Shown here: positions 842 through 52,628 of the stretch, one piece after another
Layout: every line of letters begins with the position of its first letter
How positions within the stretch are numbered: the first letter of the stretch is position 1
Origin: a virus
Virus record (IMG/VR): IMGVR_UViG_3300034012_003048
Location: 1 to 58,466 of that record
DNA: 58,466 bases
Strand: one strand, 5' to 3'
Program-made: the position numbers and the translations under genes
The notes under the pieces: generated by a model
What the model was told of the DNA's origin: nothing
The model's database searches: none
Seen by the model: only the letters and a program-made list of their open reading frames with translations

Positions 842-1111
842 ATGCCCATCATTTTAATCTCTGAAAAGCAATTTGGAAAATTAGTTGAAACAGCACAAGA
901 TTTGGATAGATATGTTCAACTAATCGACTATGACTCTTCTAATGGAAACGAAGGATTGGAAGTATCGATAAAAGGGTCAATCGACGAACTAAATGAATTA
1001 CTTTCTATGTTCAAAACAGGGAAAAAAATCTATCCAAACACGGAATCCAAAATTCACAAAATCTTGGATGATATAAAATCAATTCATTTGGAAGTTAAGA
1101 CTGAAAATTGA
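842..1111 (+). CDS. Small protein with virion-type N-terminal tag (89 aa)
   Basis: Function unknown. Residues 6-17 (ISEKQFGKLVET) match a tag shared with the genes at 43624 (ITKSQLQRLLEA) and 23079 minus (ITKNQFNTIILES), although the rest of the three proteins is unrelated. I infer a cleavable targeting propeptide as in T4 internal proteins. The body is acidic and probably alpha/beta. A TATTTAT box at 828-834 lies 7 nt before the ATG. Confidence 0.75.
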   Translation: MPIILISEKQFGKLVETAQDLDRYVQLIDYDSSNGNEGLEVSIKGSIDELNELLSMFKTGKKIYPNTESKIHKILDDIKSIHLEVKTEN

Positions 1112-1151
1112 TTTACTAAATTACCGAAACACCTAAATTTAAAAAAAAACT

Positions 1152-1346
1152 ATGAGAAAATTAACAAACGAAGAAAAAGCCATACTCTATAACGATATGT
1201 TGAGGAGATATCAAATGCTTCAGGAACAAGTAAGAAGAATTAAGGCTGAAAATATTAATGTCTCAGACAATGACCAAATAAAAATTAATGAGTTGGAAAA
1301 GAGAATGAAACATTTGTATAATGAAACACAAAAATTGTATAGATAA
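1152..1346 (+). CDS. Small coiled-coil protein (64 aa)
   Basis: It is almost entirely helical, charged and leucine/methionine-spaced (LTNEEKAILYNDML at the N-terminus), predicting a short coiled coil. The N-terminal LTNEEK resembles the LTEEDK tag of the gene at 44090. It is followed directly by a strong terminator at 1360-1388. No family recognised. Confidence 0.7.
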   Translation: MRKLTNEEKAILYNDMLRRYQMLQEQVRRIKAENINVSDNDQIKINELEKRMKHLYNETQKLYR

Positions 1347-1359
1347 TTTTTTATATTCA

Positions 1360-1388
1360 AACCCCCTCCGAAAAAAGGGGGTTTTTTA
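1360..1388 (+). terminator. Intrinsic terminator
   Basis: C5/G5 stem with a CCGAAAAAA-type loop followed by six T residues, immediately downstream of the gene ending at 1346. Confidence 0.85.
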
Positions 1389-1392
1389 TTAT

Positions 1393-1611
1393 ATGTTTGA
1401 AATTATGTTAAAATTCAAGAGACTATTTGTGAGGAAACCCACGAAAAAATTGACTTGGACTACACAGGATTTTGAATTAGGTAAAAATTGGGCAAAATGT
1501 CAACCGCATCCATTCCTTAAAAGAAAAACATTATGGGACTTGTGTTATGACAGAATTGATTCTGTTAACACTATTGACAATTTGAACAAGTTTATCTTCA
1601 AAGAAATTTGA
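1393..1611 (+). CDS. Small hypothetical protein (72 aa)
   Basis: I chose the ATG at 1393 because the longer reading frame (from 1321) runs through the upstream gene and its terminator. The product is basic and aromatic-rich (KLTWTTQDFELGKNW near residues 19-33). It overlaps the 3' end of the convergent nuclease gene by 14 nt. Function unknown. Confidence 0.6.
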   Translation: MFEIMLKFKRLFVRKPTKKLTWTTQDFELGKNWAKCQPHPFLKRKTLWDLCYDRIDSVNTIDNLNKFIFKEI

Positions 1612-2261: not shown

Positions 2262-2756
2262 ATGAGTAAGAAATTTTCGATAACTGAAGAAGAAATCCAA
2301 CGTATCAAAGGGTTGTATCTCACAGAGGAACCAAAATCTGAAAATAAAAAGTTTTGTCATTCGGGTAATGTTAAAACTTTGGAGGAGATTATGGGTGATG
2401 ATGAGGCATCTGACTACGTAGAAGGAATTCAGTTAAGAAAAAATGGTGTCAACGGTTTAGCTGACAAGATTGAGCTTTTGAAGACCATTAGACTTCACCC
2501 GAGAATCTCAGATGGTGGAGAACATTTAGCTTATGAACTTATGAATTGTCTAAAAACCTTCAAACCTTACAGATATTTCGATGACGTAAGAAAAGAATGT
2601 CACAGTGCTATGGATAAAATTATCGAAGTTTACAAAGAAAGTGAACACGGTGAAGAATTGGTCAAAGACCTAGAAAAAATTTATTCTCACAAACATCTTT
2701 CACCAAAAGCTAAGGAATTTATCAAACATGGTATTTCTTTTGCGAAGGGTGAATAA
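2262..2756 (+). CDS. Tagged virion-type protein (164 aa), function unknown
   Basis: Residues 8-23 (EEEIQRIKGLYLTEEP) match the tag seen in the PPK2 gene (EIERIKSVMGFLNEE) and the gene at 31160. Each has a helix ending in a hydrophobic-X-Glu site like those cut by T4-type prohead protease. The body is helical, with His and Cys residues (FCHSGN, RLHPRI, CHSAM) but no known domain. A TATTTAT box at 2251-2257 is 4 nt before the ATG. It is divergent from the secreted nuclease. Confidence 0.8.
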   Translation: MSKKFSITEEEIQRIKGLYLTEEPKSENKKFCHSGNVKTLEEIMGDDEASDYVEGIQLRKNGVNGLADKIELLKTIRLHPRISDGGEHLAYELMNCLKTFKPYRYFDDVRKECHSAMDKIIEVYKESEHGEELVKDLEKIYSHKHLSPKAKEFIKHGISFAKGE

Positions 2757-18660: not shown

Positions 18661-19761
18661 ATGAAATTATTAAATGAAATTGAACGAATTAAGTCTGTCA
18701 TGGGTTTCCTAAATGAGGAACAAGAAATGGAGGGACCATCGATGAATAAGAATTTAAGGAAGACAGTAGAAATCCTTCAATTTTTGAAAATATATGGAAA
18801 TAAAATAGAGAGGATGTTACAAGACCTTTCTAAGTTTGCTGAGGAGCAAATTATAGATTTTGATTTACTTGAAAGAGGTTTGAGAAAAACTTTATTGAAG
18901 AAAGGAGATAAGAAAAAAAATGTGGAAGAATATTTGGGTAAAGTTGTTACATCGTTGAGGTATAGAGAGAGGAAGGGGTATGGAACTGAGCCCGATAGTG
19001 AGGACTACGAGTTTGAAATTGAGGAGCCATCTATAATCCCCAAAAAGGTTTACAGGAAAGAACTTTACGAATTACAAATAGAGTTGTTAAAATTACAAGA
19101 ATGGTTAAAACAAACAGGAAAAACCGTAATCTTAGTTTTCGAAGGTAGAGATTCTGCTGGTAAAGGTTCAACAATAAAAAAGTTTACAGAAAATTTAGAC
19201 CCAAAATATTATAATGTGATTGCTTTGGGTATTCCAACCCCCGATGAAAAGAAGGATTGGTGGAACAGATATCGAAAACAAATAAAGCCGGGTATGATAA
19301 ATCTTTTCGATAGAAGTTGGTATAACAGAGGGTTAATTGAACCTGTCATGGGTTATGGTTCCCCAGAAGAATACGAAGATTTCATGGAAAATGTTGCCGA
19401 CTTTGAACAGGATTTAGTTAAGGGCGGAGACTTTTTGTTCAAGTTATGGTTTTCTATAGACAAAGAGACACAAAAAAGAAGATTTGATATTAGACAAAAA
19501 TCTCCACTGAAATATTGGAAATATTCACCTAACGACGCCAAAATGCAGGATTTATGGGACAGATTTACAGAATTCAAAGAAAAACTTTTTGATAAGACAT
19601 CTACTCTGAATCACCCATGGGTTATTATTGATGCTCAGGACAAAAGGGTTTCGGGTTTGAACGCCATCAGATATATTTTACAGAGTATACCCTATGCTGG
19701 TAAAAACAAAAAGGTTTTAGAAAAAGATTATCCCGAAGTAATTGCCGTATTGAAACCTTAA
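18661..19761 (+). CDS. ppk2: Polyphosphate kinase 2 (PPK2) with N-terminal virion-type tag
   Basis: The catalytic core spans about residues 128-350: Walker A in FEGRDSAGKGSTIKKF, Walker B/lid in INLFDRSWYNRG, and RFDIRQKSPLKYWKYSPND. PPK2 enzymes transfer phosphate between polyphosphate and nucleotides; this sequence is of the class acting on nucleoside mono- or diphosphates, but the direction cannot be told. Residues 5-20 (NEIERIKSVMGFLNEE) are a tag shared with unrelated proteins at 2262 and 31160, and residues 21-125 are an extra helical region. The TATTTAT box is 16 nt upstream. The tag suggests the enzyme is packaged in the capsid (inference). Confidence 0.9.
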   Translation: MKLLNEIERIKSVMGFLNEEQEMEGPSMNKNLRKTVEILQFLKIYGNKIERMLQDLSKFAEEQIIDFDLLERGLRKTLLKKGDKKKNVEEYLGKVVTSLRYRERKGYGTEPDSEDYEFEIEEPSIIPKKVYRKELYELQIELLKLQEWLKQTGKTVILVFEGRDSAGKGSTIKKFTENLDPKYYNVIALGIPTPDEKKDWWNRYRKQIKPGMINLFDRSWYNRGLIEPVMGYGSPEEYEDFMENVADFEQDLVKGGDFLFKLWFSIDKETQKRRFDIRQKSPLKYWKYSPNDAKMQDLWDRFTEFKEKLFDKTSTLNHPWVIIDAQDKRVSGLNAIRYILQSIPYAGKNKKVLEKDYPEVIAVLKP

Positions 19762-19992: not shown

Positions 19993-20619
19993 ATGGAGAA
20001 ATTAAGAGAAATTATCAAAGAAACTTTAGAGGAACACATAGACAAATCTCTAATACTTACTGAAAATATCGAGATTTCTGATTCATTAAAATATCATATT
20101 GATGAAGGACTTACGTTGTCAAATAATGTATTCAGAGTTTATTCGAAAGGATATTTTGATTTGGTTAATGAGGTTAGGGAGTTGTGGAGACAGGGAAAGA
20201 TTACTTTGAATGAAGAAGATACTCTGATTGTAGAGTCTGATTTGGGTTTGAGGGTAAAGATTAAAAACGAATATGTGTATTTGGATGCTCCTTTTATTTT
20301 GGAGGAATGGACCGAAGAGGAGTTGTTGGATGAGGCAAAACATCGGGGTAAAAATGTTAAATTGAACAAACCATTCAGAACTCCTGGTGGACCAAAAAAG
20401 TTCGCAGTCTATGTAAAATCACCGGGAGGTGGAGTAAAAAAAGTCACTTTCGGTGACCCTAATTTAAAGGTAAGAAACAGAAACAAGGGGGCGGCCAAAT
20501 CATTTAGAGCGAGACACAAATGTGACCAAAAAAAGGATAGAACGACCGCAGGTTACTGGTCTTGTAATGTAGGAAGATATGCCAAACAATTAGGATTGGC
20601 ATCCAAAAATGCTTGGTAA
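19993..20619 (+). CDS. Phage structural-type protein with basic Cys-containing C-terminal domain (208 aa)
   Basis: The N-terminus is tag-like (LREIIKETLEEHI, then LILTEN near residues 20-25). The C-terminal 90 residues form a compact basic domain: PFRTPGGPKKFAVYVKSPGG, TFGDPNLKVRN, then SFRARHKC and GYWSCNVGRYAKQLG. As I recall, this domain recurs in large tailed phages, often attached to head proteins, with no established activity. The start at 19993 follows a TATTTAT box (19971-19977) by 15 nt. It overlaps the next gene (TAATG). Confidence 0.75.
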   Translation: MEKLREIIKETLEEHIDKSLILTENIEISDSLKYHIDEGLTLSNNVFRVYSKGYFDLVNEVRELWRQGKITLNEEDTLIVESDLGLRVKIKNEYVYLDAPFILEEWTEEELLDEAKHRGKNVKLNKPFRTPGGPKKFAVYVKSPGGGVKKVTFGDPNLKVRNRNKGAAKSFRARHKCDQKKDRTTAGYWSCNVGRYAKQLGLASKNAW

Positions 20620-29334: not shown

Positions 29335-31143
29335 TTGAATAATAAGAAGGAAATACAAGACAGAATCAAGCTTTTGATTAGATACAGTTTGGAGAAAACC
29401 CTCACTGAAAATAAGAAAAGTATATTAGAACAGGGTTCTCCGAAGGGGTCTATATATTCTAGAATTGGAGACACCGGAAATCCCTGGGAAACTATACCTG
29501 CTTATGAATCCAAAAAGAAGAAAGACGAGGAGGAATATATCAAAAACTTTAAAGCGAGAGGTGGGAAAATCGGTTGTGATAGACCTGATAAGTTAATTAT
29601 TCCTGGAGTGAATAAAATGGGTTTGAAAGGGGAAGATGCGATGGTTGAGGAATATCCTTGTACATATGCTGCACCAATCCCTTGTGAATTGACTACACCT
29701 GGTGAATATACTCGAGCAATAAATGGTACGGGTATATCAACATTATACTTACCTCCAAACGCTAGGGTATTTTTTTGGGATGATATCACACAATGGACTA
29801 AATATTTCGAACAATATTGGGAAGGTGTATCCGAAGAAAATGAAGAAAGAGTTATTGATTATTTTTTGAAAATAGTTCCATTAGGAACAGTTAGAGAATT
29901 CTCTATAGCCAAACCAGAAAATCCTGACAATGTCCTCACTTACCGTGGAGTGTTGACCAGAGGGGAAAATTGTGGTCACTATGACGCAACAAAAAATAAT
30001 TTTGTTTTCAGATGGTATTATACAACTTCAGAACCTGATGAAAACGGAAAATACACAATGTCTCCCTACCCCGAAATGCAGTTCGTTGATAACAGAAGTG
30101 ATTGGGATTACTTTTTGGATGAATATGGATTTGTAACTCAAATGGTTTTAGGTGCGGTTTATGCCTTGACAGGAATTTTCTGTGAGGGTTGTACTTGGCC
30201 CTTAATATTCGAAATAGGTATGGAAGGGGCTCTCGGAGTGGCTCAATCCCAAAGAGATATAGAAAAAGGAGATAACATATCGGCGGCGTTAGATTTGATT
30301 TTTGCGGTGCTCCCAATGATGAAAACCCAGAAATTCTTTGGAGCGGTTCCAGCCCAAGAAGGTTTGGAAGTTTTAAATAATATGAGAAAGGCGGGATTGA
30401 GTAGAACAACTAAGCCTACCGATGTTATTAGATGGTACAGGAAACAACCAGACCAAGTTAAAAAAACCTTTTCCAAGATGATTCAAGGAGGGGATGAGTG
30501 GTCTGAAGCCAGAGTTAAAGAATTCTTCGAAAAAGCAGGCAATGATTTTTTTACCTATATCAGACAACATCCAAAAAAATTAATGGATATACCTTGGTAT
30601 AAAACTATTCACGCAAAAGAGGCCGGGATAGGTGCTGCTCTTTTTCCTGTTAATATGATTTTGCGGGCAACACTTGGTCAACAACTGAACAGTGAAGAGA
30701 TGGATAGGCTATCTCGAGTCCATGCGAACATAAAGGCGGTTGATGAAAAACTTGCTTTAGAATTTGAACAAAATTTAATTGTGAATGCCACCAGAGCAAA
30801 AGAATATTTGAAAAGTCCGGCAATGATTGAAATGTCGCTGATGGACCCATCAATTGCGGGTGACCCAAAATTGTGGCAAAATAAATCTATGGAAGCGTTT
30901 GGTGAATCAAATTATCAACAAATTCCAGAGGATGAAACAGGACTTATTCAGAACCAATCAATGGATAAAAAATCCGCTAAAGATAAAATTAAAAACAATA
31001 ATTTATATACCAAAGAAGAGGTAATTAAAAACGGGTGGTTGGAAAAAGTGGGCAACATCGAAATAATTAATGGTATAAAGTATTATGTGGTCAAAGATAC
31101 TACTTTGACACCTAAAACTTCGCAAGAACCTTCAAAACAATAA
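29335..31143 (+). CDS. Large tagged protein, probable virion cargo (602 aa)
   Basis: I place the start at TTG 29335, 13 nt after a TATTTAT box. The longer frame from GTG 29257 would start upstream of the promoter and run through the opposite gene. The N-terminus then reads IQDRIKLLIRYSLEKTLTEN, then SILEQ, a tag-like helix with hydrophobic-X-Glu sites. The middle has a hydrophobic stretch with Cys (about 275-300) and the rest is soluble and helical. No enzyme motif recognised. First of four consecutive large plus-strand genes. Confidence 0.72.
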   Translation: MNNKKEIQDRIKLLIRYSLEKTLTENKKSILEQGSPKGSIYSRIGDTGNPWETIPAYESKKKKDEEEYIKNFKARGGKIGCDRPDKLIIPGVNKMGLKGEDAMVEEYPCTYAAPIPCELTTPGEYTRAINGTGISTLYLPPNARVFFWDDITQWTKYFEQYWEGVSEENEERVIDYFLKIVPLGTVREFSIAKPENPDNVLTYRGVLTRGENCGHYDATKNNFVFRWYYTTSEPDENGKYTMSPYPEMQFVDNRSDWDYFLDEYGFVTQMVLGAVYALTGIFCEGCTWPLIFEIGMEGALGVAQSQRDIEKGDNISAALDLIFAVLPMMKTQKFFGAVPAQEGLEVLNNMRKAGLSRTTKPTDVIRWYRKQPDQVKKTFSKMIQGGDEWSEARVKEFFEKAGNDFFTYIRQHPKKLMDIPWYKTIHAKEAGIGAALFPVNMILRATLGQQLNSEEMDRLSRVHANIKAVDEKLALEFEQNLIVNATRAKEYLKSPAMIEMSLMDPSIAGDPKLWQNKSMEAFGESNYQQIPEDETGLIQNQSMDKKSAKDKIKNNNLYTKEEVIKNGWLEKVGNIEIINGIKYYVVKDTTLTPKTSQEPSKQ

Positions 31144-31159: not shown

Positions 31160-33502
31160 ATGGAAAAAAGATTAATAACGGAAATCGAGAGGATTGGTGA
31201 AATAATGGGTGTAAAAAAATCATTGATAACTGAAGCCCCATTACCTAAATGGATGAGGGACCTCATAAAAAATAATTTTTGGGAAAGAGAAGGAAATGAT
31301 GTTGTGAGTAGATGGGCAAAACCAGGAGAGTTCGGAACAATCGACAGACAAGGATTTAGAAACATATCGTTAGAAAATGGTGAAAACCTAAGAATTTCAA
31401 GAGCCGATAACGACGCATTGGATGATTTTTTATCCCCACCAAGACCTGGTGTTGCCACTAAAACCTATGAAACACTAACAAATAATCAAAAGCAATTGTT
31501 TTGGAAAATATTAGACGATGCTATGGCACAGGAGGGCAAAGGTGCCGAAGATTTATATAACGAGTGGGTAAAATCGAGAATTAATTTTTTAAAAAGATAT
31601 AGTGAACTTGATGTTCTGAGAGATGTAGCGGCTAGAAATAAAAATAGGTCTGATAACCAAAAATTGTCCACTGTAGAATATTTGATTAGTGAAAAGGGTG
31701 TTGACCCTAATTTAGCTAGAAGAATTGCCCCTATAATGGACGAACAAGTTCAATTATTAGAAAAAGGTGCGTTGACAGTTAATAAGGATTTAAAAGCGGT
31801 TTTAAAAATGGATGAAGAATTACAAGATTTTCTTACTTCGTTCAACTCCTTGAGTCCTGAAAATGTCACAAGAATTGCTAGAGATAGAAAAATTGTAGTA
31901 GATGCGGTAGAAAAGGCGGATGCTCTTTACATTCAAGCAAAAAAACTAATGAAAAACCTCCAAGACGCTAGTCCAAACAACAGGCTTGAAATAGAAAGGG
32001 CACTAGCTGAGACAATGAGAGAATTATATAATAGTAAGGAATTAGTCGGAAGACAAATGACAAAATTTCTTGATGATATGGAGTCATCTGGTGATGATGA
32101 ATTAGTCGAATTAGCAAAAAAAATAAAAGACGTTAGAAAACGATATACAGAGGGAGACGATTGGAAACTTTTGAAATTAACTAAAGACCAAACTAGATTC
32201 TGGGGTAAGGTTGGAAAGGCTTTTGGTGAAGGTGTAAACAGTAAAAACTTATTTACATTAGAAAGAGCGGCAGCGAAGGCGTTGGGGATGGTAATAAAAC
32301 CAATTGCCGCTGGAGTTAGATGGCTTATTAGACTTTTCACAAAAAAAGAGGCTAAAGAAGTTGCTAAGACAACTGCCGATACTATAAAAAAAGAGTTTCC
32401 AAGTTACATGCAGGTGTTTAGAAGATTGATGACCGGTAGTGAGAGAGGTTTACCTCAAGATATACCCTTAGTTGGAACTAAATCAGGTACAATTGATGTC
32501 GGGGGTACAAGATACATGGACCCCTATCAGGAACTTAGAGGTTATGGTGATGTTACAATTGGTCCCACAATTAAAGGAAAAAGATATGGGTTTACTTTGA
32601 GTGTACCTACACTGTCTTATCTAATGGAAATTTTTGCTGTTTCATTGAAATGGGTTGTGTATGATATGATAATTGGAACCGTTTTTCCGGCAATCGCCTT
32701 CCACTTTTACGGTGGGAAGGGGAACTATTCATGCTACAACACTTTAGTTAAATTTTTTGAAGAAAAGGGTGTAACAAAATATGGTGTAATTATGGAGTAT
32801 TTGACTGATGAAGATTTGAGGAAAACAATGCCCAAATGTACAGACCAAGTTTTAAAAGACCAAAGTAACATGGGAATCCCTTTTACAAATATAAATTTAA
32901 CAAATACACCTGAAATGGTGGCAATGAGATTAGATTATATGTTGACACCAAATGGTTCTAGAACAGAAGAGGCTGGAGATTTAAGTACCTTTTGGTCTGA
33001 AGTTTGGGAAAATCTTGGAAGTGGATGGTTTACTGCTAAAGGTTTAATAACTTTATCACCCGTAAAAATAGATGATGCGTTTTGGTATGGTAATAAAATA
33101 ATGAAAAAGTTTGCTGAATGGGATGCTGGTGCTTCCATTGACCCTGAACTACCAAACATAACTGACCCAAGTGAAATGCTTTTCAGAGATTTCTGTTCAG
33201 ATATGAAACACACTTTTGTGAGTTTCGAAAATGGTGTTGGTACATCAAAAGACGCTACGGGTGAAATCAGATGTTGGCAATTGAATACTAATACGATGCA
33301 GGAGTTCATCGGTATAGATTGTCCTGGTTCGACACCCAAAACAACCACTACAGATTCAATTCCTAAAGCAGATACTACAAGTAAAACGGTACAAGGAGTA
33401 AATGCTCCTCAGACACCTAGTGAAAAAACTACCGTAGAACCATTGGATTCAAATAAACTTAAAGATATCCAACAACAACTTAAACAAAAATACGGAAACT
33501 GA
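31160..33502 (+). CDS. Very large tagged protein, probable virion/ejection protein (780 aa)
   Basis: Residues 6-17 (ITEIERIGEIMG) and LITEA at about 22-26 match the tag of PPK2 and the 2262 gene. Residues 100-430 are long charged helices. Two hydrophobic helices lie near 478-515 (LSYLMEIFAVSLKWVVYDMI and the following segment). The C-terminus is Thr/Pro/Ser-rich. Its length, helicity and buried hydrophobic pair recall internal virion proteins ejected with DNA; this is inference. It overlaps the next start (TGATG). Confidence 0.72.
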   Translation: MEKRLITEIERIGEIMGVKKSLITEAPLPKWMRDLIKNNFWEREGNDVVSRWAKPGEFGTIDRQGFRNISLENGENLRISRADNDALDDFLSPPRPGVATKTYETLTNNQKQLFWKILDDAMAQEGKGAEDLYNEWVKSRINFLKRYSELDVLRDVAARNKNRSDNQKLSTVEYLISEKGVDPNLARRIAPIMDEQVQLLEKGALTVNKDLKAVLKMDEELQDFLTSFNSLSPENVTRIARDRKIVVDAVEKADALYIQAKKLMKNLQDASPNNRLEIERALAETMRELYNSKELVGRQMTKFLDDMESSGDDELVELAKKIKDVRKRYTEGDDWKLLKLTKDQTRFWGKVGKAFGEGVNSKNLFTLERAAAKALGMVIKPIAAGVRWLIRLFTKKEAKEVAKTTADTIKKEFPSYMQVFRRLMTGSERGLPQDIPLVGTKSGTIDVGGTRYMDPYQELRGYGDVTIGPTIKGKRYGFTLSVPTLSYLMEIFAVSLKWVVYDMIIGTVFPAIAFHFYGGKGNYSCYNTLVKFFEEKGVTKYGVIMEYLTDEDLRKTMPKCTDQVLKDQSNMGIPFTNINLTNTPEMVAMRLDYMLTPNGSRTEEAGDLSTFWSEVWENLGSGWFTAKGLITLSPVKIDDAFWYGNKIMKKFAEWDAGASIDPELPNITDPSEMLFRDFCSDMKHTFVSFENGVGTSKDATGEIRCWQLNTNTMQEFIGIDCPGSTPKTTTTDSIPKADTTSKTVQGVNAPQTPSEKTTVEPLDSNKLKDIQQQLKQKYGN

Positions 33503-34295: not shown

Positions 34296-35795
34296 ATGGA
34301 TATCAGAAAATATTTGTTGGAGCAGTTGAATAGTCAACAATCGACAGCTGAACAACAAGCAAAAAAATTGAAAAATGCTGTTGATGTTGGATGTTTCACG
34401 GGTTCGATAGTGGTTGATAAAAATGCTGAGCCTATAGAGGAACCAGGTTCACAACCATATGTTCAAGGCAAGGTTGGTAATGATGATGTAAAAATTACAG
34501 TTGAACCTAATTTACTTATTAATTTAACTCAAGAAAAACTACCTGTTGCACAAAGAACTCAACCCATCAAAAGAAGTTGGAATTGTAAATCTTTAGATAA
34601 TTTATATGTATATCTTAATAAGATTCAAGAATTGGGATGGACTACTAAAGAGCCCACAGAGCTAGAAATTGGTGAAGGAAATGTTTTGGTTTATAATCTC
34701 AAAACAGGCTTGACTTGGTCATCAGATTTAAACAAGTTCGTTGCTCCGGCTAAGAATGACAACAGATATAAGCAACTTGAAACGTTTTTCAAATACACAA
34801 GTCCAATGTTGGCCAACTCAACTCAAGGAATTAATGTGTATAAAACTGAAACGGATGTGAGTGACATAACAAATGTTAGATTAGATGATAGAGACTGTGA
34901 AGAATCTGTTACTAAGTTGTACAACTACTATACAAGAGATGAAAAGGCCGATAGTGATAGAATCAAAGTCGAGCAAGAAAATGTACAGAATTGTGTTTAT
35001 CAGGGAAGACTAAGGTCAGGTAATGTAAGAGTAGGTCCTCCTAATTTATTCAACAAACAAAAACAAAAAAGAATTGAAGATGTGATGGATGAACTTTTTA
35101 ATATGTCTTGGCAAGACCCATGGCAAAAACAATTCAGAATCACAAGGAAACGCGGCCAAAATGAGGGAAAGTTAGTGTTTAACGTCAAGAAAAATTTGAT
35201 GGAGGCTTATGAGAAAAAACAAGCAAAATTAATTGAAGCTGACATTTGTAAAAAAAGACTTGATTTGATTATCGAAAACATGGAGGAATTTAAAAAATTC
35301 AACACTCCAAAAAAAATCGGTAAGGGTTTCAGATATCTAAGGGAAGCTTCCCAACTGAGAAAGTTAGGGCTATTGAATGAAGAACTAGGAAATTTATTCC
35401 AACAAATTTTTGGTAAATCTTTAGATGGTATCCTAACTAACGTATCAGAACCTTTGTTAACTTCAATTTTTGATAAGATAGACCTTCCTGAAGACATCAA
35501 AACAGACGTGGTAAATAGAATTCATTCTAAAACTACAGAACTTTTGGCAAATATGGATAATTGTGAAAATCTGACAAACTTCTTATCTACACAACTTTCC
35601 GAAGCACTTGCTGATAAAATAATGGCAAACAAACTGATTGGTTCAGAATTGATAGATAATAGTCTTAACGAGTTAGTTAAAGGAGAAAATTTCAAACAAA
35701 ATATTTCCTCAAAATTACATGATAATATTTGTGCGTTGTTTGAAAAATTTTCTGAAAACGCGAAAAATTTGGTGACAAAACTTTCTGAAGTTTAA
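34296..35795 (+). CDS. Large tagged protein of the virion-cargo group (499 aa)
   Basis: Residues 1-12 (MDIRKYLLEQLN) give an LLEQ-type tag; the TATTTAT box lies 17 nt upstream. The N-terminal 100 residues are beta-like with a paired Cys, followed by a long helical C-terminal half (LRKLGLLNEELGNLFQQIFG near 345-364, IHSKTTELLANMDNCENL). No catalytic motif visible. The transcript ends at the 35841-35870 terminator. Confidence 0.7.
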   Translation: MDIRKYLLEQLNSQQSTAEQQAKKLKNAVDVGCFTGSIVVDKNAEPIEEPGSQPYVQGKVGNDDVKITVEPNLLINLTQEKLPVAQRTQPIKRSWNCKSLDNLYVYLNKIQELGWTTKEPTELEIGEGNVLVYNLKTGLTWSSDLNKFVAPAKNDNRYKQLETFFKYTSPMLANSTQGINVYKTETDVSDITNVRLDDRDCEESVTKLYNYYTRDEKADSDRIKVEQENVQNCVYQGRLRSGNVRVGPPNLFNKQKQKRIEDVMDELFNMSWQDPWQKQFRITRKRGQNEGKLVFNVKKNLMEAYEKKQAKLIEADICKKRLDLIIENMEEFKKFNTPKKIGKGFRYLREASQLRKLGLLNEELGNLFQQIFGKSLDGILTNVSEPLLTSIFDKIDLPEDIKTDVVNRIHSKTTELLANMDNCENLTNFLSTQLSEALADKIMANKLIGSELIDNSLNELVKGENFKQNISSKLHDNICALFEKFSENAKNLVTKLSEV

Positions 35796-41782: not shown

Positions 41783-42556
41783 ATGAAGTTTTTTTATTTT
41801 TATAATGACTTACTTTTAGAGGCCAGATATTATTCCGATGAGAAATTTAATTGGGTGGCTCAAAATATTGGTGGTTGGATATTAGATAGCACTATTGATA
41901 GTCCTTGGAAGATAAAGGCTCTACCATTATACAATGAGTTCAAAGATTATTTGAGGTCGAACACCACAAAAAATACAAGTACAGATGATGATATGGTTCT
42001 AGCGACCGATTACATTGAAAACTTTTTGAACTTTTTGTCTCCAAGAGATGCCCAAACTTTCATCAAAGGCTCCATGGAAAAATTCCCAAGAGTAAAAGAG
42101 AATATTGTAAATTACTTGAAACCAAAAGTTGACACTGGTGTAGAAGGAAAGAGAAGAGGAAGACCCCCAGGTGTCAAAAACAAACCAAAAATAGATTTAA
42201 CAGACCCGAGTATAAGAATTATAAAAAGAGTTAGACCTGAGGAACCAGTGGATGTAACAAAGGGAAAACCTCAGAGAGTGGAACCACAAATTACACAACC
42301 GGATGTTCAAAATGAACCCGAAAGTGAACAACCGGATGTTCAAAGTTTACAAAAAAGAGCCGGAAGACCAAAACTATACGATGACAATTTAACCGCCTTT
42401 GAAAGAATGAAGTACAAAAAAGAAGGACCCGGTATGATTAAAAGTTTGGAAGGTAAAGTCGAATCTCTAAATTACGAAGCTGAACAAATCAGACAAAGAA
42501 TCCTAAAAATTATGGGAGACATAGGTAAGAGAAAAAAATACTTCGGAATAGAATAA
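41783..42556 (+). CDS. AT-hook DNA-binding protein with virion-type tag (257 aa)
   Basis: Two AT-hook cores, KRRGRPPGVKNKPK (about residues 130-143) and KRAGRPKLYDD (about 194-204), which bind the minor groove of AT-rich DNA. They are joined by a Pro/Glu/Gln linker with a repeated QPDVQ unit. The N-terminus contains YNDLLLEARYY (about 7-17), close to the T4 internal-protein tag ending in a hydrophobic-X-Glu-Ala site. The start at 41783 is 12 nt after a TATTTAT box. I infer a capsid-internal DNA-condensing protein. Confidence 0.8.
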   Translation: MKFFYFYNDLLLEARYYSDEKFNWVAQNIGGWILDSTIDSPWKIKALPLYNEFKDYLRSNTTKNTSTDDDMVLATDYIENFLNFLSPRDAQTFIKGSMEKFPRVKENIVNYLKPKVDTGVEGKRRGRPPGVKNKPKIDLTDPSIRIIKRVRPEEPVDVTKGKPQRVEPQITQPDVQNEPESEQPDVQSLQKRAGRPKLYDDNLTAFERMKYKKEGPGMIKSLEGKVESLNYEAEQIRQRILKIMGDIGKRKKYFGIE

Positions 42557-43623: not shown

Positions 43624-44106
43624 ATGATTTTAGAAATAACCAAATCACAACTTCAAAGGTTATTAGAAGCGAAACATGAAAACTTCAAACCCGCATTGGA
43701 GTTTGATAAAATACACGGTACATCACTTTCTCAATCTTGGGATTTTAAAAAAGGGATTTCAACAGATGATGTTTGGGATATTATCCAAGATTGTTTTGAA
43801 GAAAGAAAGTGCAAAAAACTCGGATACCTTGTAGAGGATTTAGATGAGGATATATTTCCATATCCGAATGTAAAATCACTTCCAATCGAAACTAAAATTT
43901 CAATTATTCAGGGAATGGCAAGTGAACTAAACTATGATGATATAGTTCACTTCGCAATCGAAAATAAAACAGGACTTACCGATAAAAAATTTAATAAATT
44001 TCATGACTCACTGAGTCCTAGACAACAACATGAAGTTCAATGGGTGAGTTCACCAAAAACCACCAAAATAATTAAAAATATTTTCAAAAATGAAAAAAAA
44101 CATTAA
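43624..44106 (+). CDS. Tagged virion-type protein (160 aa)
   Basis: Residues 5-16 (ITKSQLQRLLEA) form the clearest example of the second tag class. The body is helical, with two acidic segments (VEDLDEDIFPYP near 69-80) and a Lys-rich C-terminus. TATTTAT box 5 nt upstream. Overlaps the next gene by 17 nt. Function unknown. Confidence 0.75.
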   Translation: MILEITKSQLQRLLEAKHENFKPALEFDKIHGTSLSQSWDFKKGISTDDVWDIIQDCFEERKCKKLGYLVEDLDEDIFPYPNVKSLPIETKISIIQGMASELNYDDIVHFAIENKTGLTDKKFNKFHDSLSPRQQHEVQWVSSPKTTKIIKNIFKNEKKH

Positions 44107-44791
44107 GTTACTCACCGAAGAAGATAAAAAAATATTAAGAAGTTTTTCAAGATATGCTCAATCTTGGGGACTAAATGAAGTTGTGATTCGAATCGAAGAC
44201 CAAGGTGAAGATTTGGAGGGTATGGAAATACCGAGTCATTTTGATAATGCTTACAATGTCAAATTTCCAAAGCCCCTTCATGATTTTCTTACTGATTTCA
44301 AAAATAGATTGGCAAAATTTGATTTGATTGAATCTCCTGACGTGGATGATTTGAACTATGAAGTTGTTGAAATAAGAATTGATGTTGAAGACGAACATAT
44401 TGAATTTATTCATGATTTCTCATACACTCGAGGTTCTGAAGTTCGTGGAACGAGTTGGGATATCGAGGAAGATAAAGATGAACTTGAACCTCTCTTCGAT
44501 GCGATAAAAAGTGAAGACCCATCAGAGGATTATTTACAGTTAAGATATTATGGTTCTGGTGATAGTGGTTATATAGAAGACAGTTTTGAGGGAGGTGACA
44601 CAGTTCCTGATGTTGTAGAAGATTGGTGTTATCGAAAATTAGAAGGTATTCATGGTGGTTGGGAAATCAACGAAGGTTCAAGTGGTGAATTCAATTTTGA
44701 CTTGGAACAAGGTGTTGTAAATTTGGAACATACTGAAATGTATGAAGAGAATGAAAGTGATACTTTTTACACCGAAAGTTTTGCTAAATAA
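44090..44791 (+). CDS. Tagged acidic protein (233 aa)
   Basis: Residues 4-17 (NIKLLTEEDKKILR) are tag-like. The remainder is very acidic and beta-rich, with a GSGDSGYIEDSFEGGD loop near 159-174. It is transcribed with the preceding tagged gene. No family recognised. Confidence 0.72.
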   Translation: MKKNIKLLTEEDKKILRSFSRYAQSWGLNEVVIRIEDQGEDLEGMEIPSHFDNAYNVKFPKPLHDFLTDFKNRLAKFDLIESPDVDDLNYEVVEIRIDVEDEHIEFIHDFSYTRGSEVRGTSWDIEEDKDELEPLFDAIKSEDPSEDYLQLRYYGSGDSGYIEDSFEGGDTVPDVVEDWCYRKLEGIHGGWEINEGSSGEFNFDLEQGVVNLEHTEMYEENESDTFYTESFAK

Positions 44792-47970: not shown

Positions 47971-48186
47971 ATGAGATTAATTATTTCAGAAGAAGAAAAA
48001 AAAGAAATACTCTCCAAACATAAGAGTCCGAAACCAAAATCTGTAAAAGAGATTGAACAAGAAATTGATGAGATTGAAAAAAAATTGGGCAAGACAAAAA
48101 AGGAAACTAAAGAAGTTGATTTTGATGAACTTGTGAATACGGATATGGACTTAGAAATGGATAGAGATAGTTTGGAACAATCTTAA
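47971..48186 (+). CDS. Small tagged, highly charged protein (71 aa)
   Basis: Residues 4-18 (IISEEEKKEILSKHK) are the type example of the second tag form. The rest is a charged helix (EIEQEIDEIEKKLGK) with an acidic tail. It is short enough that the tag is a fifth of the protein. TATTTAT box 11 nt upstream. Confidence 0.75.
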   Translation: MRLIISEEEKKEILSKHKSPKPKSVKEIEQEIDEIEKKLGKTKKETKEVDFDELVNTDMDLEMDRDSLEQS

Positions 48187-48217: not shown

Positions 48218-48231
48218 TACAAATTAATTTT

Positions 48232-48647: not shown

Positions 48648-48833
48648 ATGAAAAAATTGTTAGCAATTTTATCACTTGTAACACTTGTTGCTTGTGGTGG
48701 CGAAAATGGAGCATCAACTGAAGTAAAAACTGATTCTTCTGCGGTTGTAGTAGATTCAACAAAAGTAGAAGCTACACCTGCTGTAGATTCTGTAAAGGCT
48801 GAAGAGGCTCCAAAAGCGGAAGATGTAAAATAA
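48648..48833 (+). CDS. Small lipoprotein (61 aa)
   Basis: Lipoprotein signal MKKLLAILSLVTLVACGG with a lipobox (LVAC, Cys 16). The mature part is a short disordered chain rich in Ala, Val, Lys, Thr and Glu (repeated VDSxKxE units). Bacteroidota usually route lipoproteins with acidic residues near the Cys to the surface; here GGEN follows the Cys. Phage lipoproteins often block superinfection, which is a reasonable guess. Terminator 48857-48882 follows. Confidence 0.8.
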   Translation: MKKLLAILSLVTLVACGGENGASTEVKTDSSAVVVDSTKVEATPAVDSVKAEEAPKAEDVK

Positions 48834-48883: not shown

Positions 48884-50137
48884 TTATATTAATCCTTTGA
48901 TTCTGTCTATGTTTTCAAAGAGTCTCTTCCTCTTATATGTATTTTCCTTGAAAATACTTTGAGCCATCATTCTTAATATTGGGTCTCCTTTTTCAATTTC
49001 CTGAGCATTGTCTGATTGGACTATAGAAAGTTCGTCTGATGGTATTTCGACTTGACCACCTTGTAAAGATTTGACTTTTATCGGATTACCCTTCTCATAT
49101 GAAGCGATTACTTCTCCTACTAAGTCTCCTGTACCCCAAACTTCTAATGATGGACATTGCGCTATTTCAGCAGCACCTATATTTTTTTTAAGTCCGTCTA
49201 CAATACAACTGTATCTACCATTATTGAGTGTTTTCAAAGTGGCAGACATTCCATCTTCTAGGGATTGATAATTTTGGACACCATGAGAATTGAAAGTTGT
49301 TGAATTTGGAAGTTTCCATGTAGTATTGAATGGATTAAATTTTCCACCTTGGCCTTCGGCCTGTCTCCAAGCTAATAAAAACTTTAAATTTTCGGGACTT
49401 ACAGGGGCACCCAAGTTTTTGAGTAACTCTTCATAAAAACTTTTATCTGTAATACTTAGTTCATCAAGTGTTACCTCATCTGTAGAAGTAACTTCAGGCT
49501 CTGTTTTTAGACTCGCGGTCATAACAGGAAGTTCACCGGGTAATGAGGCGGCAATGGCAACATCTTTGTCAATAACGGGTTGTCCTTTGTATCTACCTTT
49601 TGTCTCGATAGGAACGAGCTTCACTAATTCTGACCATGAGGATGAAAGGAATCCTGGATTTTGATAGCTATACCCATCATCTTTGCCATATTTGGAAATA
49701 ATCCATTCCATGAATTCGATTATGGCATTTTTGTCACCGCTTACATCTAAACCAGCAGTTACTTGAGGTTCGCCAGGAAACAATTTGTAGTGAAAACTAC
49801 TATCGGCGTGTACATCATCCAAATATCCGTTACCGTCTCTTTTAGCTATCAGATTTTCACTATTTTTGAGACCCATTTCATTGGCTTTGTTAATAACATC
49901 GATAGCAACATCCCTGTTTGTAAATCCAACATGAAGATGGTCCCAATGTTTTTTCCAAGTAATTCCAGCAATTTTCTTTCCACCGTCATACCCGTAACCT
50001 ATTGGCCCACCCTTTTTTGTTGCGGGATTGTAAACTAACTCATCAATACCGTATATATCAACTTGTTCAGACAGAACATTTTTGTGTGAAAGAATGGATT
50101 CGTAAAGTTTGAATATATCTTTTATTTCGTGATTCAT
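48884..50137 (-). CDS. Tagged peptidoglycan hydrolase, probable virion-associated lysin (417 aa)
   Basis: Two catalytic-looking regions. Residues 45-130 contain WKKHWDHLHVGFTNRDVA and SSFHYKLFPGE, with the His-rich pattern of M15-like metallopeptidases. Residues 235-330 contain FLLAWRQAEGQGGKFNPFNTTW and FNSHGVQNYQSLEDGMSATL, a transglycosylase/lysozyme-like module with the expected Glu. The N-terminus (KLYESILSHKNVLSEQ) is tag-like, and the C-terminus (FENIDRIKGLI) repeats the tag helix EIxRIKxxM at the wrong end. TATTTAT box 5 nt upstream. A cell-entry enzyme packaged in the particle fits (inference). Confidence 0.78.
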   Translation of the reverse strand: MNHEIKDIFKLYESILSHKNVLSEQVDIYGIDELVYNPATKKGGPIGYGYDGGKKIAGITWKKHWDHLHVGFTNRDVAIDVINKANEMGLKNSENLIAKRDGNGYLDDVHADSSFHYKLFPGEPQVTAGLDVSGDKNAIIEFMEWIISKYGKDDGYSYQNPGFLSSSWSELVKLVPIETKGRYKGQPVIDKDVAIAASLPGELPVMTASLKTEPEVTSTDEVTLDELSITDKSFYEELLKNLGAPVSPENLKFLLAWRQAEGQGGKFNPFNTTWKLPNSTTFNSHGVQNYQSLEDGMSATLKTLNNGRYSCIVDGLKKNIGAAEIAQCPSLEVWGTGDLVGEVIASYEKGNPIKVKSLQGGQVEIPSDELSIVQSDNAQEIEKGDPILRMMAQSIFKENTYKRKRLFENIDRIKGLI

Positions 50138-50470: not shown

Positions 50471-50552
50471 GATGGTCAGAGGTTGGTGGGAAAAACCTAA
50501 GGGCTAGCACCCGTTCACTGCTGCAGACAATTACACCAACTTGACCACCATC
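50471..50552. ncRNA. Long hairpin, structured RNA or extended terminator
   Basis: GATGGTCA (50471-50478) and GTTGGTG (50482-50488) pair with CACCAAC (50534-50540) and TGACCACCATC (50542-50552), with small bulges. The large loop holds GGG-CTAGCA-CCC. It lies beyond the stop of the minus-strand gene at 50556; which strand is transcribed is unknown. Confidence 0.5.
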
Positions 50553-50555
50553 AGT

Positions 50556-50666
50556 TCAAAAATCAATATAATCACCGTATTGGTCCCAATCTTGACTGGA
50601 ATTACTTTCCCAAGTGTTTTTACTTGGAGAGGTGTCATTTTTCTTCTTGAATTTTGTATTAATCAT
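50556..50666 (-). CDS. Very small hydrophilic protein (36 aa)
   Basis: ATG 50666 overlaps the preceding stop; product begins MINTKFKKKNDTSPSKN and ends DQYGDYIDF. Overlap with the upstream gene supports coding; function unknown. Confidence 0.5.
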   Translation of the reverse strand: MINTKFKKKNDTSPSKNTWESNSSQDWDQYGDYIDF

Positions 50667-50847
50667 TCTTGAAATAGAACTGATTAATTTCTTTAATAGT
50701 AATTTCATCGTTTTTCCATTTTTTCCAAGTGTCGAAATCTTTTAGTTCTTCGAGAGTTTTTTCATGGACTAAGACATATCCTTCAGGGGCACAACCATTG
50801 TATCGATATTCGAAACCTTTTTCTTCAAGAAGTTTTTTTATGTCCAT
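50659..50847 (-). CDS. Small hypothetical protein (62 aa)
   Basis: KLLEEKGFEYRYNG at the N-terminus, GYVLVHEKTLEELKDFDTW in the middle and a basic/acidic helix at the end. A TATATTTG box (50864-50871) lies 16 nt upstream with a CAAG/CTTG partner 19 nt further, a near-class E promoter. Not recognised. Confidence 0.65.
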   Translation of the reverse strand: MDIKKLLEEKGFEYRYNGCAPEGYVLVHEKTLEELKDFDTWKKWKNDEITIKEINQFYFKND

Positions 50848-50929
50848 TTTTTTGAATCGAACGCAAATATAAACTATTTATTTGAAATAACAAGTCCCAA
50901 AGACATAAATCTTAAATCCAAGTACATGG

Positions 50930-51157
50930 ATGATGGTAAACAGAATAAGGGTTTGGAGAAAGACTTTTCAAGACAATCTTTCTCAGATTTTTTTAATGTT
51001 GGCATTATTTTTCAATCCATTTGGATTCGATGCCGTTCAGTATTCCCTGATATTACTGACAGGAAGTTTATGGAGAGCGAACTTCGTTTTGTATGGTATT
51101 GCGGGATTGTTCTTTGGATTATACATTTACTTTCGCAGGCTTTCTAAAGTGCCTTAA
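50930..51157 (+). CDS. Small membrane protein (75 aa)
   Basis: Two hydrophobic stretches (about 19-34 and 52-68, NFVLYGIAGLFFGLYIYF) in a frame beginning MMVNRIRVW. An overlapping frame at 50926 is less hydrophobic and less protein-like, so I prefer this one. It converges on and overlaps the 51144 gene by 14 nt. Confidence 0.55.
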   Translation: MMVNRIRVWRKTFQDNLSQIFLMLALFFNPFGFDAVQYSLILLTGSLWRANFVLYGIAGLFFGLYIYFRRLSKVP

Positions 51158-52628
51158 GTTTCCCTTCTTTGAAAGCGTCGAAATTTGGACCTTTGGTCAG
51201 TATAAAATTTTTTCCGACCTTTCTGTAATCTAAAATTCCCGCCATCTTCGCTGAGGCGAAAAACGATGAATATTGGCCCCTCAAGTCTCCAGACTTGTAA
51301 AGATGTTTACCATTTGGTCTTTTATATCTTATTTTTCCATCTTGATTTATTTTTTCAAAAACCCCTATATCCGTTAAAAAATCTAATTTTGTTCCTGTAC
51401 TACCTGTACCCTGTTCGTCTAACCAATCTACAAGTTTTTTTATGAGTCCTTTGTTTTTCCCGAAAGTATAACCATAACTGAGTCTTCTAGGTGTCCAAAC
51501 TGGACCTGAAATATTCCGAACAAATTTGATGAACTCCGTATTTTGGCGTAATTTCCTTTCAACAGTACTAAACAAGTTTTTGATAAAAATATTTCTCATA
51601 ACCTCTGGCTCATTGAAAAGTATCCTAGACGTAAACTCATAACCCCACTTATAAAGTTCTAAGTCAAATTTAATATTCTCTTCGTCATCACTAAAACCCA
51701 CTGAGGTGTACCAATTGTTGAAGTCTTTAATACCGTAGGAAACAAAAATATCATATTTATCAATCTCATCATCATCTAAGCTTATCGTCAACCTTCCAAT
51801 TGCTCGTTCATCCATATCAGGAATAATTTCGAAACCATCACATTGTAAACGTAATATCTTACCTGAGTTTTCGAAGTTTTCGTCAACATAAAATTCTGTA
51901 TCATAAACACTGAATACTTCATCCAACATTTTGGTATTAGGTTGCCTTTTTTTTGCGTTACTAATCACAACAGCATCGTATAGGTCAGGGAAATATTCTT
52001 TGAATAATTCTACTTGTCCAACGTTCATTGCGTTGTCTTGTGCGTCCCACCATGTTTGATTCCCGTTTTCATCGAAATGAATGGCTACTTTATAATGTTT
52101 TTCTTTTTGAGTTCCTTTCTTTCTTATAATAAAATAAAGGTCTTTTCTCCCACTTGTATATCTGTCGAAATGTCCTGAACCTCTTTGAGTTACACACCAT
52201 TTAGTACCTGAGCCGTACTTACATGACGCTCCCTGAGTTTTTGGAACAATGACTAAAAAGTCATCGTCTTCGTAAATTTTTTCTGTTTGGTTTTCTAATT
52301 CTTTGTCCCTTTTTTTGTTTCTAACAAATTCTACTAAACTTCTGAGTTCACTCAAAGAGTTATATTGATTAATGTCTTTTTTTGGGAATTGACTTGAATA
52401 TTTATCAAAATCTTTAACCAATTCTACAACGTCTTCAATGTCATCCGTTGATGAGTTTGGTCGTAGGTTTTTTAAAACAAAATCTGTATACTTGTGATTG
52501 AAATCAATTAGGTCAGAAATACCAAGAATAAAATCTAGAGTGTTGGGCCATTCTTTGAACTTATCTGTGTATTTTTTTTTCAGGTCTTCTTTTCTACCCT
52601 CCTTCAATAAAATATTGAAAAACTTCAT
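51144..52628 (-). CDS. Large YGxGTKWC-domain protein with tag (494 aa)
   Basis: The N-terminus MKFFNILLKEGRKED carries an LLKEG tag-like site. The core near residues 128-185 contains FLVIVPKTQGASCKYGSGTK, WCVTQRGSGHFDRY and an H-x-N/W segment (IHFDENGNQTWWDAQDN). It is paralogous to the 330-residue gene at 21232-22224, which has the same core. The C-terminal 150 residues form a different, basic domain resembling a winged-helix-like segment (KLVDWLDEQGTGSTGTKLDF). TATTTAT box 5 nt upstream. Activity unknown. Confidence 0.72.
   Translation of the reverse strand: MKFFNILLKEGRKEDLKKKYTDKFKEWPNTLDFILGISDLIDFNHKYTDFVLKNLRPNSSTDDIEDVVELVKDFDKYSSQFPKKDINQYNSLSELRSLVEFVRNKKRDKELENQTEKIYEDDDFLVIVPKTQGASCKYGSGTKWCVTQRGSGHFDRYTSGRKDLYFIIRKKGTQKEKHYKVAIHFDENGNQTWWDAQDNAMNVGQVELFKEYFPDLYDAVVISNAKKRQPNTKMLDEVFSVYDTEFYVDENFENSGKILRLQCDGFEIIPDMDERAIGRLTISLDDDEIDKYDIFVSYGIKDFNNWYTSVGFSDDEENIKFDLELYKWGYEFTSRILFNEPEVMRNIFIKNLFSTVERKLRQNTEFIKFVRNISGPVWTPRRLSYGYTFGKNKGLIKKLVDWLDEQGTGSTGTKLDFLTDIGVFEKINQDGKIRYKRPNGKHLYKSGDLRGQYSSFFASAKMAGILDYRKVGKNFILTKGPNFDAFKEGKLKAL

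Follow-up and report, generated by a model that had tools for sequence, protein, structure and literature searches.

Why should proteins of quite different families, encoded in one stretch of phage DNA, begin with the same few kinds of short helix? The question is raised by the 58,466-base virus record IMGVR_UViG_3300034012_003048 (record G000), which was analysed over its whole length and is called the window here. A preliminary description of this DNA had named at least fifteen proteins that start with a short amphipathic helix ending near a hydrophobic-X-Glu site, had sorted some of these helices into three classes, and had read them as tags that load cargo into the virion. Our analysis of the window and of related phage genomes leads to an answer along these lines: the tags would be scaffold-mimicking, probably cleaved, capsid-targeting propeptides on exchangeable cargo proteins, a reading to which we give a probability of about 0.7 on the sequence comparisons set out below.

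The window is a fragment of a T4-related jumbo phage of freshwater Bacteroidota. Searched against IMG/VR, its PPK2 gene matched 103 relatives, on contigs of up to 321 kb, and 80 loci were kept. One related record of 99,072 bases, G010, shares 47,832 bases with the window at 100% identity (window positions 10,635-58,466) and then continues into the head-gene cluster; others are the 321-kb relative G001 and the 269-kb contig G007, and several of the ten related records are fragments. Of the relatives, Flavobacterium phage immuto (host Flavobacterium sp. LMO8) and Microcystis phage Mel-JY01 have been cultured; their capsid proteins match with 42% identity across roughly 55% of the query, and the nearest by thymidylate synthase is immuto (52%). 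All counts given here use the gene calls of a simple open reading frame caller, some of whose starts are wrong.

Every N-terminus named in the preliminary description exists in the sequence, the one at 29335 with a TTG start. To compare them, N-terminal segments were scored between proteins whose remainders are unrelated. Within the window alone this pairwise signal is weak and not decisive, with four N-terminal pairs scoring 35 or more among 1,125 unrelated pairs of 48 proteins, versus 2, 2 and 1 in three controls. In G001, 85 of 38,453 unrelated N-terminal pairs scored at least 45, versus 3 mid-protein, 1 C-terminal and 0 shuffled pairs; G007 and G008 gave 53 and 40 such N-terminal pairs, and the mid-protein, C-terminal or shuffled controls of the three records gave 0-6. 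The clusters include MSKIIRLTENDLIRLVNKVIKEQ, MKYIITESQLKTIMMEQ, MNLNENISRVKELMGLVSEE and MRELIKKILREA, each kind standing on several different proteins.

A profile of the N-termini, the check that the preliminary description had proposed, was built from the relatives in the form of six position-specific tag models, trained on G001, G007 and G008, given thresholds from internal windows and then applied elsewhere. The training records contain 68 of 393 (G001), 84 of 369 (G007) and 56 of 267 (G008) tagged proteins, where 2.7, 3.4 and 1.4 are expected. Among held-out records, 12 of 86 proteins are tagged in the window (1.5 expected from internal windows), 13 of 125 in G010, which shares genes with the window (1.7 expected), 15 of 216 in immuto (1.2), 32 of 351 in the 280 kb used of the 484-kb LR756508 (3.8), and 15 of 185 in G006, a record fetched afterwards (0.9; one of the fifteen, a bS21-like gene, looks spurious). 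The tagged share is thus 17-23% in training records and 7-14% in the five held-out ones. Phages that lack a Peptidase_S77 protease gave 2 tagged proteins in 438 (phi38:1 0/88, phi4:1 1/177, crAss001 0/101, lambda 1/72). Other lineages that have this protease gave 1 of 251 in T4 (1.4 expected), 2 of 150 in RM378, 5 of 236 in Mel-JY01, 3 of 184 in HTVC008M and 5 of 193 in P-SSM4, and from these counts we conclude that the tag classes are not general to T4-like phages.

In the window the models hit the proteins at 842, 2262, 18661, 19993, 23079 (minus), 25645, 31160, 43624, 44090, 47971 and 52628 (minus), together with a borderline call at 1152 that looks spurious. Short N-terminal tags common to unrelated proteins, the central claim of the preliminary description, are therefore confirmed. 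Eleven of its fifteen examples are recovered; those at 29335 and 50137 (minus) are supported by other evidence given below, the latter carrying its clear tag at the C-terminus instead of the N-terminus, and those at 34296 and 41783 are weak. Its three classes are parts of a larger set. The same counts bear on the simplest alternative, in which each tag belongs to an ordinary folded domain as its first helix and the likeness reflects convergence of amphipathic helices. Such a view fits the weak pairwise likeness within the window, yet it sits badly with the held-out counts when these are set against internal windows and against the phages without S77; it is already disfavoured, and we regard it as very improbable.

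Peptidase_S77, the family of the T4 prohead protease gp21, is found in 9 of the 10 related records, so that the prohead protease that was to be looked for has a gp21-type candidate in the relatives, and a gp23-type capsid protein (Gp23 family) is found in 7 of 10. No S77 protease, scaffold or gp23-type capsid protein was seen in the window; all three are in G010, where the scaffold was identified by position and sequence, not by a family search. The ClpP encoded in the window (35850-36530, minus; Pfam CLP_protease; best PHROG 'head maturation protease') was considered as the prohead protease and rejected, the relatives having a separate S77 gene beside the capsid gene. This ClpP has a look-alike in G001 at 147387.

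The T4 protease gp21 is described as cutting behind L/I-x-E (PMC9026906). The tags here mostly end, as had been claimed, at a hydrophobic-X-Glu site: [LI]xE with its Glu at residue 10-36 is present in 61 of 69 tagged versus 245 of 661 untagged proteins of the held-out records, and in 165 of 202 versus 251 of 718 in the training records, an enrichment that is partly circular because the tag models include that Glu. In the capsid proteins an N-terminal region runs into YLINE/ASST, QIVSE/ANVT or QLVTE/TNTI, an [IV]xE-[AT] site (the stroke marks the presumed cut) that appears close to the specificity of the tag sites and at which the protease would be expected to act.

The scaffold offers a possible explanation of how a tag finds the head. 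The C-terminus of the gp22-like scaffolds reads ...FLRMKDLMSKLG, with close variants, in the bS21-type and ...VSRWQKLAGIIK in the immuto-type, and two immuto cargo proteins carry SEQF[KR]RMQ[FK]LAGIITES after a few residues at their N-terminus. A model of this immuto-type tag (the LAGI model), made from three cargo tags, two of immuto and one of G007, was used to rank the C-termini of all proteins with at least 60 residues. The scaffold C-terminus comes first for eight of nine scaffolds and second for the ninth (G008, of 267): it is first in G010 (of 125), G001 (of 393), immuto (of 216), LR756508 (of 351), Mel-JY01 (of 236) and RM378 (of 150), and in G007 (of 369) both scaffolds are first, each with the other left out. 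None of 60 column-permuted and none of 60 random-N-terminus models ranks the scaffolds as well. It was hits of this kind that first drew attention to the scaffolds of Mel-JY01, LR756508 and RM378, which were afterwards accepted on the position of their genes directly upstream of the capsid gene; without these three, five of six are first and one is second. In G006, fetched later, the scaffold C-terminus is first of 185.

Pattern searches gave a similar picture. A relaxed pattern, drawn from tags and scaffolds together and admitting W and S because of the scaffolds, occurs in 16 records at 17 N-termini (one gene being counted in both the window and G010), at 8 C-termini, which are those of seven scaffolds and the RM378 gene, and at 2 internal places in about 630,000 internal residues. 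Restricted to letters seen in cargo tags, the pattern occurs in 17 records at 4 C-termini, all of scaffolds (G007, G006, Mel-JY01 and RM378, the last recognised by position), and at 2 internal places in 677,406 residues. A register R-[IVM]-K-[ED]-L-M is, by eye, common to class-A tags and the scaffold, and the best internal matches of the six models fall in the head-gene cluster 7 (A), 9 (B), 11 (C), 10 (D), 12 (E) and 6 (F) times of 36, where 4.2 are expected, many of these matches being below threshold. One tag class, the LAGI type, thus appears to resemble the C-terminus of the phage's own scaffold, and we infer that the other classes may be mimics as well. Beside the capsid gene, G010 71120-71839 and similar genes have a short N-terminal LxE segment and a class-E-like helix inside the protein or near its C-terminus; the product of G010 71120-71839 is a candidate core protein.

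The tags behave as separable modules. PPK2 has a tag in 80 of 80 homologues when reading frames are also read upstream of the called start: 65 are class A by pattern, 4 more by eye, and 11 have a different short tag, MRNLNRHLLSEE or close variants. In an alignment of 25 PPK2 sequences, similarity to the window is 89% over the tag core, 50% over the linker that follows and 95% over the PPK2 domain (two rows with the short tag do not reach the tag columns). The structure model of this protein has a helix at residues 2-13, a low-confidence linker to about residue 29 and then confident helices, and the alignments to 18 solved PPK2 chains begin no earlier than residue 92, ten of them from 126. A separate helix ahead of a low-confidence linker, outside the part matched by solved chains, is not what would be expected if tags were first helices of folded domains. 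The AlphaFold model of the protein 51144-52628 (minus) is more favourable to that alternative, its tag running on into one long helix; this model (mean predicted local distance difference test 83, predicted template modelling score 0.46) has no PDB match at E<=0.001.

One tag also stands before unrelated bodies, which again argues against ordinary first helices. Region 28451-35795 and the same locus in G001, G007 and G008 consist of conserved small genes with two slots that hold unrelated tagged bodies and a third slot with partly related bodies, and the region is apparently a cargo-swap locus. In the first slot the 29335 tag aligns with those of G008_41038, G001_149758 and G007_188564, between conserved neighbours (tag match E 0.13), and 6 of 6 body pairs from the four phages are without BLAST similarity (E 0.055 or worse, remote homology being still possible). 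In the 31160 slot 6 of 6 body pairs are likewise unrelated, and the tags of the four phages are class-A, class-A, class-B-like and short. The reverse is seen in a protein with the body YMFFSNL..., whose tag is of class D in G001 and of class E in G008, the bodies being 55% identical. Among reciprocal-best pairs, 61 are tagged on both sides and 704 are untagged on both (the window and G010 have genes in common, which enter these counts twice).

The tag need not be at the N-terminus. The C-terminus KRLFENIDRIKGLI of the protein at 50137 (minus) scores 21 bits with the class-A model, a score of 11 being reached by none of the record's 488 internal windows, and no N-terminal tag was found in it by the models. 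G001_133370, which has the same neighbours, ends in GKLQENIKRIKGLL (26.7 bits); the last 34 residues of the two match (E 0.014), and their bodies are without BLAST similarity (E 0.66 or worse). C-terminal tag hits were also obtained in G001 (2), G007 (3) and G008 (2), with 0.1-0.2 expected in each. At this second swap locus, 48884-50137 minus in the window and 133370-134665 in G001, the tag at the C-terminus is conserved, as is, judged by eye, a KLY...SE segment at the N-terminus.

A modular start could also arise if a 5' gene cassette, consisting of promoter and gene start, were copied by recombination, the peptide being a passive passenger with no targeting role. There is some likeness in the DNA: over the upstream 40 nucleotides (nt), the measure for tagged genes of strongly similar tags is 0.45 versus 0.32 for random genes in G001, 0.38 versus 0.33 in G007 and 0.43 versus 0.35 in G008. 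Nevertheless, identical tag residues are written with different synonymous codons in 127 of 336 (G001), 149 of 417 (G007) and 259 of 771 (G008) cases, counted over pairs, so that the peptide is conserved while the DNA drifts. The PPK2 tag core is far better kept among homologues than the linker adjoining it, and a cassette leaves both the C-terminal tags and the match to the scaffold C-terminus unexplained. We consider passive copying improbable, only slightly less so than ordinary first helices.

The contig G007 provides a further view of the relation between tags and heads. Its first part is immuto-like (59 of 62 best hits up to 120 kb) and the rest resembles bS21-type phages (68 of 74), each half with its own protease, capsid and scaffold genes, and it may be a chimeric assembly or a true hybrid. 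The immuto-like part holds all 6 LAGI and F tags and the remainder all 25 A and D/C/B tags, by patterns that were written after seeing the tags and that cover these classes and not class E. This distribution indicates that the kind of tag goes with the kind of head module.

Tagged genes also share an upstream motif, TATTTAT. Within 60 nt upstream it is present in 42 of 65 tagged versus 65 of 327 untagged genes in G001, 39/78 versus 63/290 in G007, 33/56 versus 49/209 in G008, 7/11 versus 26/113 in G010, 8/10 versus 17/76 in the window, 4/8 versus 28/206 in immuto and 6/11 versus 44/174 in G006 (p 0.044). When only genes with a gap of at least 40 nt are counted, the effect persists in the training records, with 24/27 versus 41/123 (G001), 20/20 versus 31/97 (G007) and 15/18 versus 24/82 (G008), and in immuto the effect is not kept (1/2 versus 15/72). 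The reverse complement is rarer upstream of tagged genes (6/65 in G001, 9/78 in G007 and 8/56 in G008). Thirteen of the fifteen proteins of the preliminary description have the motif within 60 nt, and for 31160 and 44090, the two exceptions, the gene immediately before has it. TATTTAT is also found before the scaffold, protease and portal genes, though not the capsid gene, in G001 and G010, and in immuto before terminase, portal, sheath, tape-measure and baseplate genes (32 genes listed, a few not late by name), and it is probably a late promoter. Of its 114 occurrences ahead of tagged genes in G001, G007 and G008, 68 start at a distance of 11-13 nt from the start codon (in the window, for example, at 2262, 43624 and 52628 minus). 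If it is a late -10 element, transcription of late genes would start at the start codon or close to it and give leaderless transcripts, in phages that apparently encode their own bS21: a small reverse-strand gene among the portal, protease, scaffold and capsid genes of G010 and G001 is taken as bS21 by position and sequence.

What do the tags carry? The cargo scan covered 113 of 174 strong tagged proteins, those crossing a 20-kb join having been left out beforehand. Pfam named 35 families (25 of them shown), which cover at most 37 of the 113. Among them are PPK2, peptidoglycan-binding proteins, L,D-transpeptidase, C39 and C70 peptidases, M23, glucosaminidase, lysozyme, a TseH-like family, acetyltransferases and T5orf172; PHROGs adds endolysins and endonuclease VII, and PADLOC gave 1 weak family in the 113. 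From these names one might guess at an effector role of the cargo.

Some of the tagged proteins, lysis and peptidoglycan enzymes, could sit in a tail, and the promoter-like motif is common to tail genes too. The tags might accordingly be docking helices for another late complex of the phage (tail, baseplate, membrane or transcription machinery), the scaffold using the same kind of helix, and their proteins would then not be packaged in the head. This explanation has to account for the fact that, outside cargo, the LAGI tags find their best C-terminal matches in scaffolds, for the over-representation of class-E-like segments in the head cluster, and for the protease motif carried by most tags; we hold it to be unlikely, although it is the strongest of the alternatives to capsid-targeting propeptides.

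Several observations weigh against capsid targeting by scaffold mimicry. The ribonucleotide reductase small chain and sigma-70 regions are among the 113 tagged proteins and are unlikely cargo. The L/I-x-E motif is short and frequent, as the 245 of 661 untagged N-termini that have it illustrate; the protein at 25645 is without LxE behind its tag, and those at 44090 and 47971 have one only further on (in the latter VKE27 and IDE34). Only the LAGI model, made from two immuto tags and one of G007, gives a clear match to the scaffold, and the scaffolds are mutually related, so that its ranks are not independent. Under the class-A model the bS21-type scaffold, ranked by its best internal hit, is 11th of 395 in G007, 14th of 413 in G001 and 25th of 135 in G010; the other scaffolds rank 16th of 226 (immuto) and 75th of 395 (the second of G007), and that of G008 is not flagged. 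Mel-JY01 (5 of 236 tagged, 3.2 expected) and RM378 (2 of 150, 2.0 expected) have roughly background tags despite the scaffold signature, and in the 50-kb head region of LR756511 the models tag 0 of 75 proteins. In LR756508 there is no link to TATTTAT (0 of 21 tagged versus 2 of 330 untagged genes). Finally, 66 reciprocal-best pairs are tagged on one side only.

Together, the S77 protease and gp23-type capsid protein of the relatives, the L/I-x-E ends, the likeness to the scaffold and an upstream motif common to head genes support the virion-cargo reading that had been proposed. The scaffold-mimicking propeptide would work as follows. The short tag helix would imitate segments of the phage's own scaffold and core proteins, most clearly the C-terminal peptide of the scaffold, and the tagged protein would join the scaffold core of the growing prohead, presumably by binding to it. 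Once the shell is closed, the gp21-type protease would cut behind L/I-x-E, and tag and scaffold fragments would leave. The freed protein would stay with the packaged genome and probably be delivered into the next host. Since the tag is autonomous and a shared late-type promoter often stands at the start of its gene, the body behind it would be exchangeable, and a large turnover of cargo would result.

There is perhaps an even chance that this extends to a general cargo-loading system, in which tags at either end of a protein are copies of scaffold or core helices, effector-like enzymes co-assemble as pseudo-scaffold, are released by the protease and delivered, and bodies are swapped behind constant tags. 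If so, the head would be an exchangeable effector bay, with cargo such as PPK2, peptidases, cell-wall enzymes and acetyltransferases. In these phages the logic of a capsid-targeting sequence seems to extend to dozens of proteins each; head-delivered protein would then be a main part of the biology of these jumbo phages, and cargo, including many proteins of unknown function, could be read from sequence. The likeness of tag and scaffold gives a concrete, testable answer to how a tag finds the prohead, and tags of this kind might be used for loading proteins into phage heads.

The tagged genes of the window differ in how well they are supported. Two stand 17 bits over threshold, the class-A tag MSKKFSITEEEIQRIKGLYLTE at 2262..2327 (plus; next residue E), with a predicted cut after E22, TATTTAT 11 nt upstream and a tagged orthologue, G001_188669, whose body is 70% identical, and the class-B/D tag MRLIISEEEKKEILSKHK at 47971..48024 (plus), with TATTTAT 18 nt upstream. 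At 842..889 (plus) MPIILISEKQFGKLVE precedes T, with a predicted cut after E16, TATTTAT 14 nt upstream and the orthologue G001_190370 tagged too. PPK2 carries its class-A tag MKLLNEIERIKSVMGFLNE, followed by E, at 18661..18717 (plus; TATTTAT 23 nt upstream). Other model hits are MEKLREIIKETLEEHIDKSLILTE, followed by N, at 19993..20064 (plus; TATTTAT 22 nt upstream); MNFYITKNQFNTIILE, followed by S, at 23032..23079 (minus; TATTTAT 14 nt upstream), with tagged orthologues in G001 (body 37% identical) and G007 (27%); the class-A tag with a second half MEKRLITEIERIGEIMGVKKSLITE, followed by A, at 31160..31234 (plus); and MILEITKSQLQRLLE, followed by A, at 43624..43668 (plus; TATTTAT 12 nt upstream). 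The hit MKKNIKLLTEEDKKILRSF at 44090..44146 (plus), whose gene overlaps the end of the preceding tagged gene, has LNE30 as its nearest LxE behind the tag. The class-B tag MKFYSNSPISEEERQSILSQHK at 25645..25710 (plus) is 1.4 bits over threshold and has tagged orthologues and TATTTAT 21 nt upstream. At 52599..52628 (minus) the short tag MKFFNILLKE, followed by G, is a model hit with TATTTAT 12 nt upstream, and is conserved in 14 of 16 homologous loci with a full start, two diverged loci being matched from residue 7.

Three N-terminal tags were not found by the models: MNNKKEIQDRIKLLIRYSLEKTLTENKKSILE, followed by Q, at 29335..29430 (plus; TATTTAT about 20 nt upstream), and two weak candidates, MDIRKYLLE, followed by Q, at 34296..34322 (plus; TATTTAT 24 nt upstream) and MKFFYFYNDLLLE, followed by A, at 41783..41821 (plus; TATTTAT 19 nt upstream), where LxE-A is conserved in the orthologue G001_141473. 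The C-terminal class-A tag described above lies at 48887..48928 (minus) in a 417-residue protein (48884-50137, minus) whose gene has TATTTAT 12 nt upstream. For the proteins at 25645, 29335, 31160 and 34296, neither PHROGs (at E<=0.05) nor Pfam (with its curated cut-off) gave a match.

Other features of the window may be mentioned here. Sixteen tRNA genes lie in 22265-52749, 14 of them between 42580 and 48551, interspersed with tagged genes. Two adjoining carbamoyltransferase genes occupy 37191-40453 (minus), and similar N-termini stand side by side in G001 143465-146729. A host-like stretch at 52756-58466 (G010 42122-48741) is present within the phage contig in both the window and G010; its G+C reaches 0.41, versus 0.31-0.37 over most of the neighbourhood, and it encodes a PspC domain, an outer-membrane beta-barrel protein with a carboxypeptidase-regulatory domain (1,101 residues in G010) and small membrane proteins.

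How does such a system compare with those already known? The bS21-encoding Bacteroidetes jumbo phages, found in freshwater and with complete genomes of 293-331 kbp (Chen et al. 2022, PMC9723584), appear to be the same kind of virus as the window and have the bS21-like gene in common with its relatives G010 and G001; tagged proteins are seen here, whereas the accessible parts of that paper contain no description of them. In the open-access papers searched, neither N-terminal tags shared among proteins of Bacteroidota phages nor cargo tags that mimic a scaffold were seen described, which is no proof of absence, and a search for a virion proteome of immuto found none. Scaffold-mimicking cargo tags are proposed here. 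In phage P1 the first 30 residues of DarB are reported to be enough to send a reporter into the head (PMC9024508), an N-terminal packaging signal as here, although here many proteins share a tag. Head proteins of SPN3US and phiKZ are described as having propeptides that a gp21-related protease removes behind Glu, two SPN3US proteins having an identical N-terminus (PMC5694885, PMC9026906). They resemble the present tags in this removal and in the shared N-terminus and differ in that several of the propeptides exceed 100 residues and that, according to the same literature, a gp22 counterpart is unconfirmed in any giant phage.

The closest parallel is the capsid-targeting sequence (CTS) of T4. 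The T4 internal proteins have CTS propeptides of 10-19 residues with affinity for the core, which gp21 removes, and it has been suggested that the CTS may let T4-like phages take in various proteins (PMC9026906). The CTS of IPI-III and Alt resemble the present tags in being short N-terminal propeptides with an L/I-x-E motif, in the gp21/gp22/gp23-type machinery and in their unrelated mature parts (PMC9026906, PMC5694885). The sequence classes are different, as the background result of the tag models in T4 indicates, and only short tags such as MKFFNILLKE are similar by eye. In addition there are several classes here and not one, the tagged proteins of the three training relatives stand against a handful in T4, one class copies the scaffold C-terminus, and some proteins are tagged at the C-terminus. 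The system works like the T4 CTS, but is no member of it by sequence. In T4 the gene before gp23, gp22, begins MLKEQLIAEAQK, and two T4 proteins, which we take to be internal proteins, begin MKTYQEFIAEA. From this likeness T4 may mimic its own scaffold too, and scaffold mimicry may be older than the lineage described here.

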